Shown here: one piece after another, positions 51,151 to 56,718 of the stretch
How the letters are laid out: every line of letters starts with the position of its first letter
Position numbering within the stretch: the first letter of the stretch is position 1
Translations under genes and position numbers: made by a program
Assembly: GCA_015522635.1 (NCBI GenBank)
Contig: WALW01000019.1
Location: 186,001 to 250,000, forward strand
Direction: 5' to 3'
Source of the DNA: Candidatus Tiamatella incendiivivens
GTDB taxonomy: Archaea; Thermoproteota; Thermoprotei_A; Sulfolobales; Acidilobaceae
Length of the DNA stretch: 64,000 nucleotides
Notes under the pieces: model-generated
What the model was told of the DNA's origin: nothing
Databases searched by the model: none
Seen by the model: the letters and a program-made list of their open reading frames with translations, nothing else

Positions 51151-52311
51151 TCAAGGAATCCTGTAAACATCTATTTTGGGGGGCCATATACTCTCTAGTA
51201 TCATTGTGATCTTCAAAAATTCCTCGTTAAAAATAGGTGGCTCGGGGCGAGGTGAAGCACGTGCACCTTTATAGGAACAGAACTCTGTTTGTCTAGATGC
51301 TATGTCATAAAAACCTAGTTTCATCGTTTCCTTTACAATATCGTCTTTATCGAATCCCACAACCGGTCTCAGAATAGGAACCTGTAGGTGTGAAGATGTA
51401 ACATACATACTTTCCACGGTTTGGCTTGAGACCTGCCCTAATGACTCTCCTGTTACTAATGCTAAGTAATGCTTAGATAGTGCCAGCTTAGCTGCGTGCT
51501 GGAACATTAAACGACGTAATACAAGGATTCTATAGTTCTTTCTAATCATTCGGGATATGACTTCTGCAGTCTCATGAAAATGAACTCTGTATATTTTCAT
51601 AGGGTGCTGATCCATAATATGATCCGAATATAGTGCTGTAGCTAATTCAAGGGCAACCTTCCAATTATCTTCTGTAGCAAAGTCATAATATATTAGATCC
51701 GTGGGTGAACCCCTCTTCATCACCATCCAAGCCGATAAAGCAGAGTCAAAACCGCCACTGAATAATGTGAGAACCTTAGACTCGCTTCCTAAGGGCAAAC
51801 CACCCGGGCCATCTACAATCTTATCATATAGATAAGAAGTATTATCCCTAATTTCTATGTGAATAGCGTATTCAGGGTTCGTAAGATTCACCTTTCTGGG
51901 ATTACAGTTATCATACAAAAAACCGCCTATTTCTCTTTCCGCATCCTTACTCGTAAACGGATGCTTTCCCGTTCTCCTAACCCTAACCATAAACTCTTTC
52001 CCTCTGATTTTATTGCAAAATAATTCAAGGGCTACTTCACTTATTCTACGTAGATCAGCTGTATCCGTAAAACACGCTGGAGAAAAGCTCTTGACACCGA
52101 AAACATTGGAAAGGATTTTATCTATTAAGAGATCATACTGGTCGACTTCCACTATTATTCTTGCATGTTCATGGTAAACCCTATTAACATTGACTCTATT
52201 GAAGCCTAAGGCTTTACGTATGTTTAAGATCATCCTTGAAATCATTTTCGACCTAGTATAACTACCCTTGACAGCTGGTTCCGAATACCTAATTAAGTAA
52301 ACTTTTTTCAA
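51151..52311 (-). CDS. thiI: ThiI-type tRNA 4-thiouridine synthase
   Basis: The 386-residue protein has an N-terminal ferredoxin-like/THUMP region (about 1-165) and a PP-loop domain with SGGFDS (about 185-190) and the TGESLGQVSSQT helix. It adenylates U8 of tRNA before sulfur insertion. No rhodanese domain is present, so sulfur must come from another carrier, as in many archaea. Cysteines near the C-terminus (EFCSYKG) may take part. The TTG start is at 52311. Confidence 0.9.
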   Translation of the reverse strand: MKKVYLIRYSEPAVKGSYTRSKMISRMILNIRKALGFNRVNVNRVYHEHARIIVEVDQYDLLIDKILSNVFGVKSFSPACFTDTADLRRISEVALELFCNKIRGKEFMVRVRRTGKHPFTSKDAEREIGGFLYDNCNPRKVNLTNPEYAIHIEIRDNTSYLYDKIVDGPGGLPLGSESKVLTLFSGGFDSALSAWMVMKRGSPTDLIYYDFATEDNWKVALELATALYSDHIMDQHPMKIYRVHFHETAEVISRMIRKNYRILVLRRLMFQHAAKLALSKHYLALVTGESLGQVSSQTVESMYVTSSHLQVPILRPVVGFDKDDIVKETMKLGFYDIASRQTEFCSYKGARASPRPEPPIFNEEFLKITMILESIWPPKIDVYRIP

Positions 52312-52377: not shown

Positions 52378-52827
52378 ATGAAGGAGAAAATCGAGGTAAA
52401 ATGGATCTCTGGGGTTATTAGTATTTGGGGTGTAAGCGAGCTAACCATCAGAGGAGATGAATGGCATATAACTCTCTCGCAGAGAGATATTAAATTAGAG
52501 GGAATAATTGGAACAGAAGAACAGTTCCTTGCTCAAGGCTCAAACTTAAAGCACCTTTATATCCGATTTAATGAACAACTTAGAGGATCCAACAGGAAGT
52601 CCTCAAAACAAGTTATCTCAAGCAACTCTAGACTTGAAATAGGGTTCTTTGAAGTCAGATACACGGTATTGAGAGGAAAACTGTTCTATATAACTACAGT
52701 TCCTATATATGGTGCATTGTATGATTACGCTATTCTAACACCAAGCGAACTTTACGTTAGAACACTTGGTCGAAGGAAGGTTTTCATACAAGGCGGGCAA
52801 AACAATATGAATGTATACCTGCTCTAG
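52378..52827 (+). CDS. Beta-rich protein of unknown function, first gene of a three-gene set
   Basis: I do not recognise this 149-residue protein. It alternates short strands and polar turns (WISGVISIWGVSELTI, KHLYIRFNEQL, KLFYITTVPIYGAL) and ends in NMNVYLL, consistent with a beta sandwich or barrel. No signal peptide, membrane segment or metal motif is seen. Two further genes follow at 26 and 18 nt, so it likely acts with them. Confidence 0.65.
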   Translation: MKEKIEVKWISGVISIWGVSELTIRGDEWHITLSQRDIKLEGIIGTEEQFLAQGSNLKHLYIRFNEQLRGSNRKSSKQVISSNSRLEIGFFEVRYTVLRGKLFYITTVPIYGALYDYAILTPSELYVRTLGRRKVFIQGGQNNMNVYLL

Positions 52828-52853
52828 TGAGATAAAAAAGAGGGTGTTATGCT

Positions 52854-53816
52854 TTGTATATGCTTTCCATTAATTATGAGCAGATTGATAAAATAGCCGA
52901 GGTTTTAGGTAAAATTCTAAAAGACCATCCGGTAGATCCATTCGTGAATCCAAACTATTATCCCCCAGAAGGAACAGATTTTGAAGCCCTCACGATGTAC
53001 TTCCTAGTTATGGTATCTATGGATCATCGGTTAAGTAGGCCAAATAGACCATATGAACTGGTAATGCGTGGAGAGAAGTATCATGGAGCCGATTTACTAT
53101 ATAAATTAGGTATGGAAATGTTCAGGACGAAACCCCAGTTTTTTACAGCAGAATATCTCTCTCACATAACAGAGGACGATGTTAAAGAATGGCTTGCCCC
53201 CAGGGGAGTTGTAAGACCAGTTGATATCAACTTGAGAACACTGCTCCTAAGAGATATTGGGAGAAAATTAACTGCCTTGTTCGATGAGAAGGCCTACAAC
53301 ATAATTGAATACAGCAAAGGATACCTCAAGAATAAAGGAAAGGGTTTCATTGAATTACTGAAAGCATTTACCGCGTACCAAGACCCTGTAGAGAAGAAAG
53401 CTTTTCTCCTAGCCAAATTCCTAGAGAGGCGGAGAGTATTGCAGATAGTTGACAGCTGGAACAAAGAGGTTCCTGTTGACAATCATTTAACGAGAATAGC
53501 GATTAGGTGGGGATTAATACACCTAGAGCGGGAGTTACTTGAGAAAATAGCATATGGAACGCCTTTTACCGGCAAGGAAGATACTCTCATCCGTTATTAC
53601 GTGCAAATAGCATTTAAACTGGTTTCTCAGAAAGCCGGTGTTGATCCCTTTATACTAGACGATTTCCTCTGGAGTTTCGGGAGAACAGTATGTAAGAGAG
53701 AAAATCCTAAATGTATACAGAACGGAGATTGCCCCATTATGGAGTTCTGTAGAGCTCAATCAAACAGGCTCTATATGGTTGGGGAGCATAACTATTATGA
53801 AACATGGTATTACTAG
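52854..53816 (+). CDS. HhH-GPD/Qng1-like protein with C-terminal Fe-S-type cysteines
   Basis: The 320-residue protein resembles queuosine-phosphate glycosylase (Qng1/DUF2419) in order and motif: NPNYYPPEG, YHGADLLYKLG, RTLLLRDIGRKL, then VPVDNHLTRIAIRWGLI and DDFLWSFGRTVC. That family is related to HhH-GPD DNA glycosylases. It also ends in a Cys-x6-Cys-x5-Cys-x5-Cys group (CKRENPKC, NGDC, MEFC) like the 4Fe-4S loop of Nth/MutY. Archaea make archaeosine rather than queuosine, so a DNA or RNA glycosidase role is as likely. The TTG at 52854 or ATG at 52860 starts it. Confidence 0.58.
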   Translation: MYMLSINYEQIDKIAEVLGKILKDHPVDPFVNPNYYPPEGTDFEALTMYFLVMVSMDHRLSRPNRPYELVMRGEKYHGADLLYKLGMEMFRTKPQFFTAEYLSHITEDDVKEWLAPRGVVRPVDINLRTLLLRDIGRKLTALFDEKAYNIIEYSKGYLKNKGKGFIELLKAFTAYQDPVEKKAFLLAKFLERRRVLQIVDSWNKEVPVDNHLTRIAIRWGLIHLERELLEKIAYGTPFTGKEDTLIRYYVQIAFKLVSQKAGVDPFILDDFLWSFGRTVCKRENPKCIQNGDCPIMEFCRAQSNRLYMVGEHNYYETWYY

Positions 53817-53834
53817 TTTATTCAGGGATGAATT

Positions 53835-54866
53835 TTGATTAAAACCTATAGTAATCGAGTAAAAGACAGTATAGACGTTCAGTTCAACAACATAATAATT
53901 GACACTGAGCCGAATAGTTTCGGCTTAAACAAGATAGCAAGACCTATAAGTATAAAGGGATTCAATAGTAGTGCAAAAGAAATTTTAACCGAAGTGGTCT
54001 TAGCAGCAGTTAATCCTGCGGACAAGATAAAACTGTCTATTTCAATCAATGGTATAATAATAACAAGAGAGGTAAGGCCTACACATATCACAGACTACGG
54101 TGGGTTATATTGGATGTCAACAGTATATGATGCGACTGAGCTATTGAGAAATAGACTGAATCCTCTATATCAGACATTGAAAATATACTATCAGGGTAGT
54201 GATGTCAGGAGATTTGGATATGTATCCATGTTAGCTGCATATAACGCTGAGGATATGGAAACAACCTATACATATGCTTCGGGTTTAGAAAAAATCTCAT
54301 ACAATCAAGTTTACAGGTTAGCTCAAAACCTGGATTTCAATAGGAATAAAATAACCGATCTTCAAGGATCCCATCTAATGACTTATTCCCGTATTCCATT
54401 GGAAGCTCTAGAGATTTGCAAAACAAGTAAAGGCTGTATCAATACTCCAGTAAAACATGGTTTTAGCGAGTTGAAATTCAGGGATGCATTCGTAAAGGAA
54501 GTCTCCTTAAGAAGCAATCCAGACCCTATTAAACATAGTGTACTTTTAACTAATCACTTCAACTTCTATAGTTCTACAAGCATACCTGTATTCAAAGCTG
54601 GAAGATACAGTAAGACAAAGAGTCCTAATGATGGCTCAACAATTGTTAACATAGAATTTTCAGTAAAAGAAGGGACTGGAGAAGGCAGGGCACAATTTAT
54701 ACTAATAGATGAAGGAATCCCTGTGGGAAGACTTAGGAGAAAAGTAAAGCCAGGGTCTAACATAGTTTTGTCTTTCAACTCAAGAAATGCCCTGAAAAAA
54801 CCCATTATCAGGGTCCTGTTTTTTAAATACTCAAAGAACTGGATATTCGATTACCGCCTTGAATAG
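53835..54866 (+). CDS. Large beta-rich protein of unknown function, last gene of the three-gene set
   Basis: The 343-residue protein is not recognised. It is rich in strands (FNNIIIDTEPNSFG, KIKLSISINGIIIT, LKIYYQGSD, IRVLFFKYSKNWIF) and has no signal peptide, membrane helix or catalytic motif I can name. Charge is mixed, with two cysteines about five residues apart (EICKTSKGCIN). It lies 18 nt after the Qng1/HhH-like gene. Co-transcription suggests a shared substrate or complex. Confidence 0.65.
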   Translation: MIKTYSNRVKDSIDVQFNNIIIDTEPNSFGLNKIARPISIKGFNSSAKEILTEVVLAAVNPADKIKLSISINGIIITREVRPTHITDYGGLYWMSTVYDATELLRNRLNPLYQTLKIYYQGSDVRRFGYVSMLAAYNAEDMETTYTYASGLEKISYNQVYRLAQNLDFNRNKITDLQGSHLMTYSRIPLEALEICKTSKGCINTPVKHGFSELKFRDAFVKEVSLRSNPDPIKHSVLLTNHFNFYSSTSIPVFKAGRYSKTKSPNDGSTIVNIEFSVKEGTGEGRAQFILIDEGIPVGRLRRKVKPGSNIVLSFNSRNALKKPIIRVLFFKYSKNWIFDYRLE

Positions 54867-54885: not shown

Positions 54886-55167
54886 TTATAGGTTAATGCG
54901 AGCTCTTTTCCTACCAACATATCTCCTTAGAGGTGAAGGCAGGTTTATGCATCCCTCTCCCTTCTCAAGCAACCTCATGTTCATCAAATCGAGAATAACA
55001 TCCTCGGCCTCATTGATTCCATATTTCTCTTTCAACTCTTTTATAGCTAAGAGATCGCCAACGCTCCTATATGTTAGGAAGTACTTCATGGCCAGCCTAT
55101 GATCCCCCTTCAAAGACAAGATTTCATCAACCATTTTATGGGCAGTTATTTCCCACTCTTCAACCAT
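54886..55167 (-). CDS. Small winged-helix-like protein
   Basis: About 93 residues, mostly helical, with a helix-turn-helix-like pattern (DLLAIKELKEKYGINEAEDVILDLMN) followed by a strand pair and a basic tail (RRYVGRKRARINL). This fits a small winged helix that binds DNA or RNA, but no family is named. The ATG at 55167 has GGTG about 9 nt upstream; a GTG at 55179 is possible. Confidence 0.6.
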   Translation of the reverse strand: MVEEWEITAHKMVDEILSLKGDHRLAMKYFLTYRSVGDLLAIKELKEKYGINEAEDVILDLMNMRLLEKGEGCINLPSPLRRYVGRKRARINL

Positions 55168-55258
55168 CCTTATATACACCAGAATAATTAACAGTGCGAT
55201 AAGGTGTAAAATCTTTATGAGGTGTTTAAACGAGATAGAACGTGCCTAGTGAACTAAC

Positions 55259-56125
55259 ATGACGCCAGGAAGAAGGCTAATAGAAGAGGTAATTGACGAG
55301 TTAGGGGTTGACAGGGAGGTTATCTGGCCACGCCTAGAAATAGTTGGCGATATCGCTGTTTTACGTAAACCAATAACAATAGAGTTGAACCCAAAAATAA
55401 CTGAGACTTACAAGAAAATAGCTCGCCGTATACAAGATCGAATACCAAGTATTAACAGTATATGGCTAGCATGTACTCCTGTGTCAGAAGTAAGTAAAAC
55501 ACGCAAGTATATTTTGTTGGCTGGAGCCAATAAAAGCGAAACCGTGCATAGAGAGTTTGGGTGTAAATTCAAACTAGATCTAAGGAAAGTGTATTTTTCT
55601 CCGAGACTCAACTTCGAACACGGCTGGTTTGCTAATTTTGTAGAAAAAGACGATTACATACTAAATATGTTCGCTGGAATAGGGTTCTTCTCTATAATAC
55701 CAGCTTGCAGGAAAGGGGCACTAAGCGTTGCAATAGACTTGAACCCATATGCCTACAAATATTTACTCGAGAACATTGCACTAAATAATGTAGAAAATAA
55801 AGTATATGCATGGCACGGCGATTCTGGTATTATTACAACGATCTTATCACAATACGAGAAATTCACCCATGTAATAATGCCCTACCCGGAAAAAGCTTTG
55901 TCATATCTGCCGGTAGCCATTAACGCTGTGGAGAAATGCGGCTATCTACATATATACCTTCATACTGATATACCGAGAGAAAACCACCTGCAGATCGTTG
56001 GCAAGCTAGTTTCAGACAAGTTAAATAAATACAGTAAAAGAACCCATGAAGTCATTAGAATACGGCAAGTCAGAACGGTAGGACCAAGATATGGGCAATA
56101 TGTCGTTACGGTGAAACTATGTTGA
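55259..56125 (+). CDS. Trm5/Taw2-like tRNA modification methyltransferase
   Basis: The 288-residue class I SAM enzyme has the Trm5-family motif VYFSPRLNFEHGW, the SAM loop NMFAGIGFFSI and ALSVAIDLNPYAYKYL...NI. The usual Asn-Leu-Pro-Pro motif reads MPYPEKAL. It modifies G37 of tRNA (m1G) or transfers the aminocarboxypropyl group in wyosine synthesis. The overlap with taw3 supports a wyosine role. Confidence 0.8.
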   Translation: MTPGRRLIEEVIDELGVDREVIWPRLEIVGDIAVLRKPITIELNPKITETYKKIARRIQDRIPSINSIWLACTPVSEVSKTRKYILLAGANKSETVHREFGCKFKLDLRKVYFSPRLNFEHGWFANFVEKDDYILNMFAGIGFFSIIPACRKGALSVAIDLNPYAYKYLLENIALNNVENKVYAWHGDSGIITTILSQYEKFTHVIMPYPEKALSYLPVAINAVEKCGYLHIYLHTDIPRENHLQIVGKLVSDKLNKYSKRTHEVIRIRQVRTVGPRYGQYVVTVKLC

Positions 56126-56718
56126 CAGACTCTTGGCATAAAAGGAAAAAACGTTTCTATGAGAGAATGCTTGAAGATAAAGAGATAGGTTATCTAGATC
56201 CAGGAATAGAAAGCCTTCTAGAAGCCTTCTTCGAAAAAGAAGGACTATATACTACTAGTAGCTGTATTGGTAGAATAACTATACTACACGGACTATATCC
56301 CTGGGATAGGGACTCGACGTCTATTATCTTCAAAAAACATGGTAAAATAGGTAAAGAAACTGTTTTGAACTATCTAAGAGGAGCATCCTATGAAAATATA
56401 TGGTTGAGAGTTACAGGGCCAATAATACACGTCATTTGCAAAGACGAGAAATGGGCTCAATGGATCATCGATCTTGCCCGCAAATCCGGGTTCAAACACA
56501 GCTGTATATTCAGTCTAAAGGATGGGATAGTAGTTGAAATAATGAGTTCAATTCAAGTTACAATGCCTTTAAAAATAGAGGGCACCCCTGTAGTATGTGA
56601 AGATAAGTTACCTATTATAGTAGCTTTAGTAAACTCATTATGGGAAAGAGGAGTTACTAGCGCTGAGTCTCTGAGGAAGCTGATTGAGTCTTCCCCTGAA
56701 CCTTCTTCAACTTCTTAA
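56119..56718 (+). CDS. taw3: Taw3 (TYW3-like) wyosine-pathway methyltransferase
   Basis: The 199-residue protein has the TYW3 pattern: a helical start (WHKRKKRFYERMLEDKEIGYLD), YTTSSCIGRITIL, WLRVTGPIIHV and a C-terminal MTIRV-like strand block. TYW3/Taw3 adds a methyl group during wyosine formation at G37 of tRNA-Phe. It overlaps the Trm5/Taw2-like gene by 7 nt and the convergent priL by 62 nt. Confidence 0.85.
   Translation: MLTDSWHKRKKRFYERMLEDKEIGYLDPGIESLLEAFFEKEGLYTTSSCIGRITILHGLYPWDRDSTSIIFKKHGKIGKETVLNYLRGASYENIWLRVTGPIIHVICKDEKWAQWIIDLARKSGFKHSCIFSLKDGIVVEIMSSIQVTMPLKIEGTPVVCEDKLPIIVALVNSLWERGVTSAESLRKLIESSPEPSSTS

Follow-up and report, generated by a model that had tools for sequence, protein, structure and literature searches.

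The questions raised by this locus of Candidatus Tiamatella incendiivivens are whether its three closely spaced genes constitute a system, and what the middle one, P2, acts upon. The locus lies in the window (the whole 64,000-nucleotide stretch analysed), which is part of contig C19 of a 1.45 Mb archaeal assembly. The three open reading frames are co-directional, as the sequence-only reading had placed them, with gaps of 26 nt between P1 and P2 and 18 nt between P2 and P3, and a gene on the opposite strand follows them:

52378..52827, + strand: P1, 149 aa, an all-beta protein that matched no Pfam family
52854..53816, + strand: P2, 320 aa, a Qng1-like protein of Fe-S N-glycosidase fold, with a TTG start (alternative start: ATG at 52860)
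53835..54866, + strand: P3, 343 aa, a beta-sandwich protein with a CARDB-like C-terminal domain in its relatives
54886..55179, - strand: PBP2 (PolB1-binding protein 2), an ORF of 97 aa (PF22511, E 1.5e-20)

P1 is adjoined by a gene (51151-52311, - strand) encoding a ThiI-like protein with ferredoxin-like, THUMP and PP-loop domains (TIGR00342, above cut-off), and relatives of a TRM5/TYW2-type methyltransferase and of TYW3, which are wyosine-type tRNA modification genes, lie in tandem at 55259-56718 (+ strand).

P2 of the window reaches the Pfam cut-off of neither Q_salvage (E 8e-5, 22.8 bits; cut-off 25), nor AGOG (PF09171; E 0.004, 17 bits; cut-off 26.1), nor HhH-GPD (E 0.12, 13.2 bits; cut-off 26.2). 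Its relatives match Q_salvage in 22 of 28 cases (best 5e-7) and AGOG likewise in 22 of 28 (best 1e-4), and just 4 of 60 pass the curated cut-off of PF10343 (Qng1). The top matches of a profile of the 28 relatives are human and Sphaerobacter Qng1 chains (E 6.9e-5 to 4.7e-4), followed by AGOG and EndoIII. An AlphaFold model of P2 from 71 sequences (pLDDT 95.3, pTM 0.93) retrieves Qng1 chains first in Foldseek (1.2e-11, TM 0.77), with MutY, EndoIII and AGOG far lower, and is aligned by VIA-align with Qng1 at Z 30.7 (2.5 A over 282 of 320 residues), with EndoIII at Z 16.8 and with AGOG at Z 15.6. The Fe-S loop of P2 relatives gives matches to MutY (best 2.7e-6) and to DR2438-glycosylase (2.9e-7), and no LPGVGxKTA-type motif, the sequence of a canonical HhH hairpin, was seen in P2. 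The sequence-only reading had described P2 as a mixture of the Qng1 pattern with a four-cysteine loop of the Nth/MutY type; profile, fold comparison and hhalign all bear this out. The P2 family links the queuine-salvage enzyme Qng1 to the iron-sulfur DNA-repair glycosylases, and is widespread in archaea; no paper on it was found in the literature, and no Qng1 was found on plasmids.

The predicted active site and the loop are encoded by four segments of the P2 gene:

53394..53399, + strand: K181-K182, aligned by hhalign with the catalytic lysine of StQng1 (K199) and AGOG (K142) at K181, and with StQng1 R200 at K182
53478..53480, + strand: D209, the aspartate of the GPD loop, aligned by hhalign with StQng1 D231 and AGOG D174
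53658..53672, + strand: D269-x3-W273, the base-holding motif, equivalent to StQng1 D298/W302 and AGOG D208/W212
53691..53750, + strand: the Fe-S type loop C280-x6-C287-x5-C293-x5-C299, a four-cysteine motif in the sequence

Profile alignment by hhalign relates P2 to AGOG with an E-value of 2.7e-7 and to StQng1 with 2.3e-6. In the set of 71 P2 sequences K181, K182, K188, D269 and W273 are invariant, D209 is kept in 70, and P207 is conserved in at least 90%; K188 and P207 correspond to K149 and P172 of Pab-AGOG in the family alignment. That the predicted catalytic lysine is K181 and not K182 is judged from the profile alignments of the sequences and from the AGOG spacing of K, K+7. Active-site residues of StQng1 (D298/W302) are described in PMC11592518, and the roles of the AGOG residues (catalytic Lys, GPD Asp, Asp/Trp base contacts) in PMC9638937; StQng1 numbering was verified with its chain sequence and with the PDB titles that name K199C/D231N, and its residue roles were drawn from PDB titles and secondary papers. 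P2 shares with Qng1 an adjacent basic pair (K199-R200 in StQng1) and an E-[DE]-x3-R motif (around D243/R247 in P2), both absent in AGOG. The position of AGOG Q24, which reads N7-H of 8-oxoguanine, is occupied by N34 in P2 and mostly by arginine in its relatives, and that of the StQng1 NFxFW segment by D57-H58-R59, which is invariant. Thus P2 would retain the grip on the guanine face but neither of the known substrate readers, and with the 8-oxoguanine-reading glutamine and the aromatic pocket both absent, its family is placed by its residues outside both characterised groups, Qng1 and AGOG.

Among the same 71 sequences C280, C287 and C299 of the loop are invariant, and C293 is present in at least 90%. 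The C-x6-C-x2-C-x5-C spacing of Nth/MutY is reproduced exactly in eight, and the C-x6-C-x5-C-x5-C spacing of the window is common to 11. The loop is a C-terminal [4Fe-4S] motif of the Nth/MutY type, holding a putative cluster. About half of the family has, in addition, an insertion with three extra cysteines and a cysteine directly before C280 (both features in 34 sequences, neither in 28, partial in nine), a covariation that suggests a second four-cysteine metal site in those members.

P2 relatives are encoded in 48 of 60 related genomes; a sample of 397 genomes from across the phylum Thermoproteota has them in 107 (E 1e-3), about a quarter, and among named assemblies they occur in Desulfurococcales, Acidilobaceae, Pyrodictiaceae, Ignisphaera, Caldisphaera, Zestosphaera and Caldivirga. 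A relative that is 45% identical, on a contig labelled Njordarchaeota (L155, JAHKLH010000042.1), reflects contamination or lateral transfer. Gene neighbourhoods were counted at 79 P2 loci of named assemblies. In families other than that of the window, a dUTPase gene is immediately upstream of P2 at 20 of the 79 loci, overlapping it by 4 to 68 nt at 18 of these (ORF starts being the first possible start codons, the larger overlaps may be overestimates); the dUTPase member tested passes its NCBIfam cut-off (179 bits versus 130). PBP2 belongs to the replicative PolB1 holoenzyme as one of its subunits (PMC5418573); its gene directly follows P2, in the same orientation, at 31 of 79 loci and lies within three genes at 56. 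Nucleoside phosphorylases (PF01048) are also found near P2. At all seven Thermoproteaceae-like loci, a label inferred from gene content, P2 has a divergently oriented PTPS/QueD-like neighbour, of which the members tested score above the Pfam cut-off for PTPS but below that for the QueD equivalog, and most of these loci also have a DUF711 gene. At Ignisphaera-type loci (L110, L113, L145 and L156) P2 is beside BPD_transp_2 ABC permeases that resemble nucleoside transporters, in orientations that vary by locus. Two groups of homologues look, from their residues, like dead enzymes: those of genus g7 (L073:7697-8593, L074:7280-8149 and L075:7494-8408), which have lost K181, K188, W273 and Fe-S cysteines and are still located between P1 and P3, and those of L205 and L207, which have Tyr in place of K181 and Asn in place of D209, and whose next gene, overlapping or nearly touching them, encodes a TIM barrel like xylose isomerase and endonuclease IV.

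P2 is very probably an Fe-S N-glycosidase of the HhH-GPD/Qng1 superfamily, with a grip on a guanine-type base and with K181 and D209 as its catalytic residues. The base would stack on W273 and be gripped by D269, K188 and the turn P207-V208-D209, while K181 together with D209 would break the N-glycosidic bond. The preferred account of its substrate, to which we give a probability of about 0.43, is that P2 removes from DNA a purine that is damaged or non-canonical, perhaps in coordination with dUTPase and with replication by the PolB1 holoenzyme; on the simplest reading, the MutY-like Fe-S loop would contact DNA as in Nth/MutY. The evidence at hand consists of homology, residue conservation, the Fe-S motif and gene neighbourhood, from which we infer catalysis, the DNA substrate and the coupling to replication. 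To our knowledge, such Fe-S loops within the HhH-GPD superfamily are found in DNA glycosylases, and DNA is preferred as the substrate for this reason and for the dUTPase/PBP2 context, upstream and downstream respectively. Consistent with it are the structural matches of the model to Qng1 and then to EndoIII, AGOG and MutY, the coincidence of K181, D209, D269 and W273 (conserved in 70-71 of 71 sequences) with known active-site residues, and the loop matches to MutY and DR2438-glycosylase among relatives. The base-excision or modified-base role that the sequence-only reading had proposed thus remains the best one, given the profile and fold matches to Qng1 and AGOG and the active-site alignments. 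The main counter-argument is that Qng1, by far the closest fold, acts on a free nucleotide; three features that P2 has in common with Qng1 and that AGOG lacks (the dibasic KK/KR, the E-[DE]-x3-R motif and an N-terminal half like that of Qng1) also argue against DNA, as do the lack of a visible canonical HhH hairpin and the QueD-like neighbour in one family.

Co-occurrence was assessed in genomes at least 90% complete, 36 with P2 and 10 without. AGOG co-occurs with P2 in 32 of the 36; the exceptions are four genomes only (G000, G002, G023 and G031). The genus of the window lacks AGOG, and the window's genome has one ordinary HhH-GPD protein. Replacement of AGOG by P2 was rejected because 32 genomes have both, so P2 is not redundant with a true AGOG, which counts in favour of the DNA account. 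On that account, plain 8-oxoguanine is probably not the lesion. TGT is nearly universal, and QueC is missing from 21 of the 36 genomes with P2, including that of the window, where no strong QueC was found and a YhhQ-type preQ0 transporter is present. QueC is not correlated with P2 (15 of 36 genomes with P2 versus 7 of 10 without, p 0.16); YhhQ is (20 of 36 versus 0 of 10, p 0.002), but this correlation is confounded by family. Loss of de novo preQ0 synthesis was rejected as an explanation for the presence of P2, given the QueC result and the fact that YhhQ tracks family lines. Genomes of family f9 that have P2 (e.g., G043 and G053) have TGT and mostly neither QueC nor a YhhQ transporter. All of these AGOG, TGT, QueC and YhhQ patterns follow family lines, and so favour neither of the two roles, DNA or 7-deazaguanine, over the other.

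The main rival, possible but on balance unlikely, is that P2 is the archaeal counterpart of Qng1, hydrolysing a 7-deazaguanine nucleotide (archaeosine- or preQ0-5'-monophosphate) derived from tRNA turnover or uptake, and so supplying the free base to the tRNA-guanine transglycosylase of archaea. The wide margin by which Qng1 is the closest fold (Z 30.7 versus 16.8) and the conserved equivalents of K199, D231, D298 and W302 favour it, as does the retention of the adjacent basic pair: in a review of Qng1 work, two basic residues, both invariant, are said to be positioned for phosphate binding, and these are taken to be the pair matching K181-K182. The adjoining QueD-like PTPS gene at 7 of 7 Thermoproteaceae-like loci, the nucleoside-transporter-like permeases of Ignisphaera, and the near universality of TGT in genomes of which many, the window's included, lack QueC and may import preQ0 by a YhhQ-type transporter, point the same way. 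Yet Qng1 has no Fe-S loop, its NFxFW pocket is replaced by the invariant D57-H58-R59, the dUTPase/PBP2 operon context would be left unexplained, QueC does not associate with P2, and the association of YhhQ with P2 is confounded by family. A rather doubtful extension sees in P2 the archaeal link that the Qng1 superfamily has lacked: as an Fe-S N-glycosidase it would release 7-deazaguanine bases, archaeosine or preQ0, from nucleotides so that they can be used again. If true, this would show recycling of archaeosine in archaea and an origin of Qng1 from an ancestor of the Fe-S DNA-repair type.

Distinctly improbable is a nucleotide-pool sanitiser like DNPH1, which has a different fold from P2: hydrolysis that keeps non-canonical purine (deoxy)nucleoside monophosphates from reaching PolB1, in partnership with dUTPase, would accord with the overlap of the P2 start codon with a dUTPase gene above its NCBIfam cut-off, with the PF01048 phosphorylases nearby and with the action of a Qng1-like fold on a monophosphate, but such chemistry has no need of an Fe-S loop.

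P1 and P3 are beta-rich, as had been supposed. The AlphaFold model of P1 (pLDDT 93.5) is all-beta with 14 strands and has no convincing match in the PDB, the best (PilQ B2, Z 7.6; AmiC, Z 6.3) being below a trustworthy level, so that the resemblance may be a common beta arrangement only. Ten of 20 P3 relatives match the known beta-sandwich family CARDB (PF07705, best 1e-5) and one matches DUF3344, whereas P3 of the window alone gives no CARDB match; in the PDB profile search its sole match was a weak one to a cell-surface domain (2l0d, 0.02). No membrane-like segment is present in P1 or P3. Both evolve much faster than P2, and among 60 relatives (E 1e-3) P1 was found in 29 and P3 in 19, compared with 48 for P2. 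The gene order P1-P2-P3 occurs at 13 of 79 loci, all of the window's family, in addition to the window; P1 is immediately upstream of P2 at 16 loci and P3 immediately downstream at 15. In this family the three genes are part of a long syntenic block with the ThiI relative, Hjc, PBP2, Trm5/TYW3-type genes and the primase large subunit, and since the block includes such unrelated genes, the neighbourhood alone says little about the trio. The undescribed three-gene system of the sequence-only reading was rejected, as a general claim, on synteny: that the three proteins form one complex or system is very improbable, for although they are contiguous, co-directional and closely spaced where they occur together, and keep their order in genus g7, where K181, W273 and the Fe-S cysteines are gone from P2, the middle protein is found much more widely than the other two, commonly accompanied by dUTPase and PBP2, and P1 and P3 occur apart from it elsewhere. 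Poor conservation of the trio as neighbours and profile matches of a flanking protein to a known family, here CARDB for P3 relatives, are the outcomes that the sequence-only reading had itself named as refuting the system. P1 and P3 are lineage-specific neighbours of P2, not essential partners.

P2 is common in hyperthermophilic archaea, yet its family has no name. With a Qng1 body, an AGOG/Qng1 active site and a MutY-type Fe-S loop in one protein, it can reveal the kinship between an enzyme that salvages a micronutrient and a fold used in DNA repair, and the dUTPase-P2-PBP2 operon makes a role in replication or the nucleotide pool directly testable. Compared with Qng1 (DUF2419, PF10343), the queuosine-5'-monophosphate N-glycosidase, P2 has the same fold over its whole length and equivalents of K199/D231 and D298/W302, at about 18-20% identity, and differs in its four-cysteine loop and in the DHR that replaces the aromatic pocket. 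With AGOG, the archaeal 8-oxoguanine DNA glycosylase, it shares equivalents of K142, K149, P172, D174, D208 and W212, whereas Q24, specific for 8-oxoguanine, and F146 are not conserved, and AGOG lacks both the Fe-S loop and the Qng1-specific segments. With the Fe-S HhH-GPD glycosylases Nth and MutY it shares the sequence and position of the Fe-S loop and the Lys/Asp catalytic pair, but it lacks the canonical HhH hairpin, has five residues between the second and third cysteines in the window where they have two, and is far closer to Qng1 in overall structure.
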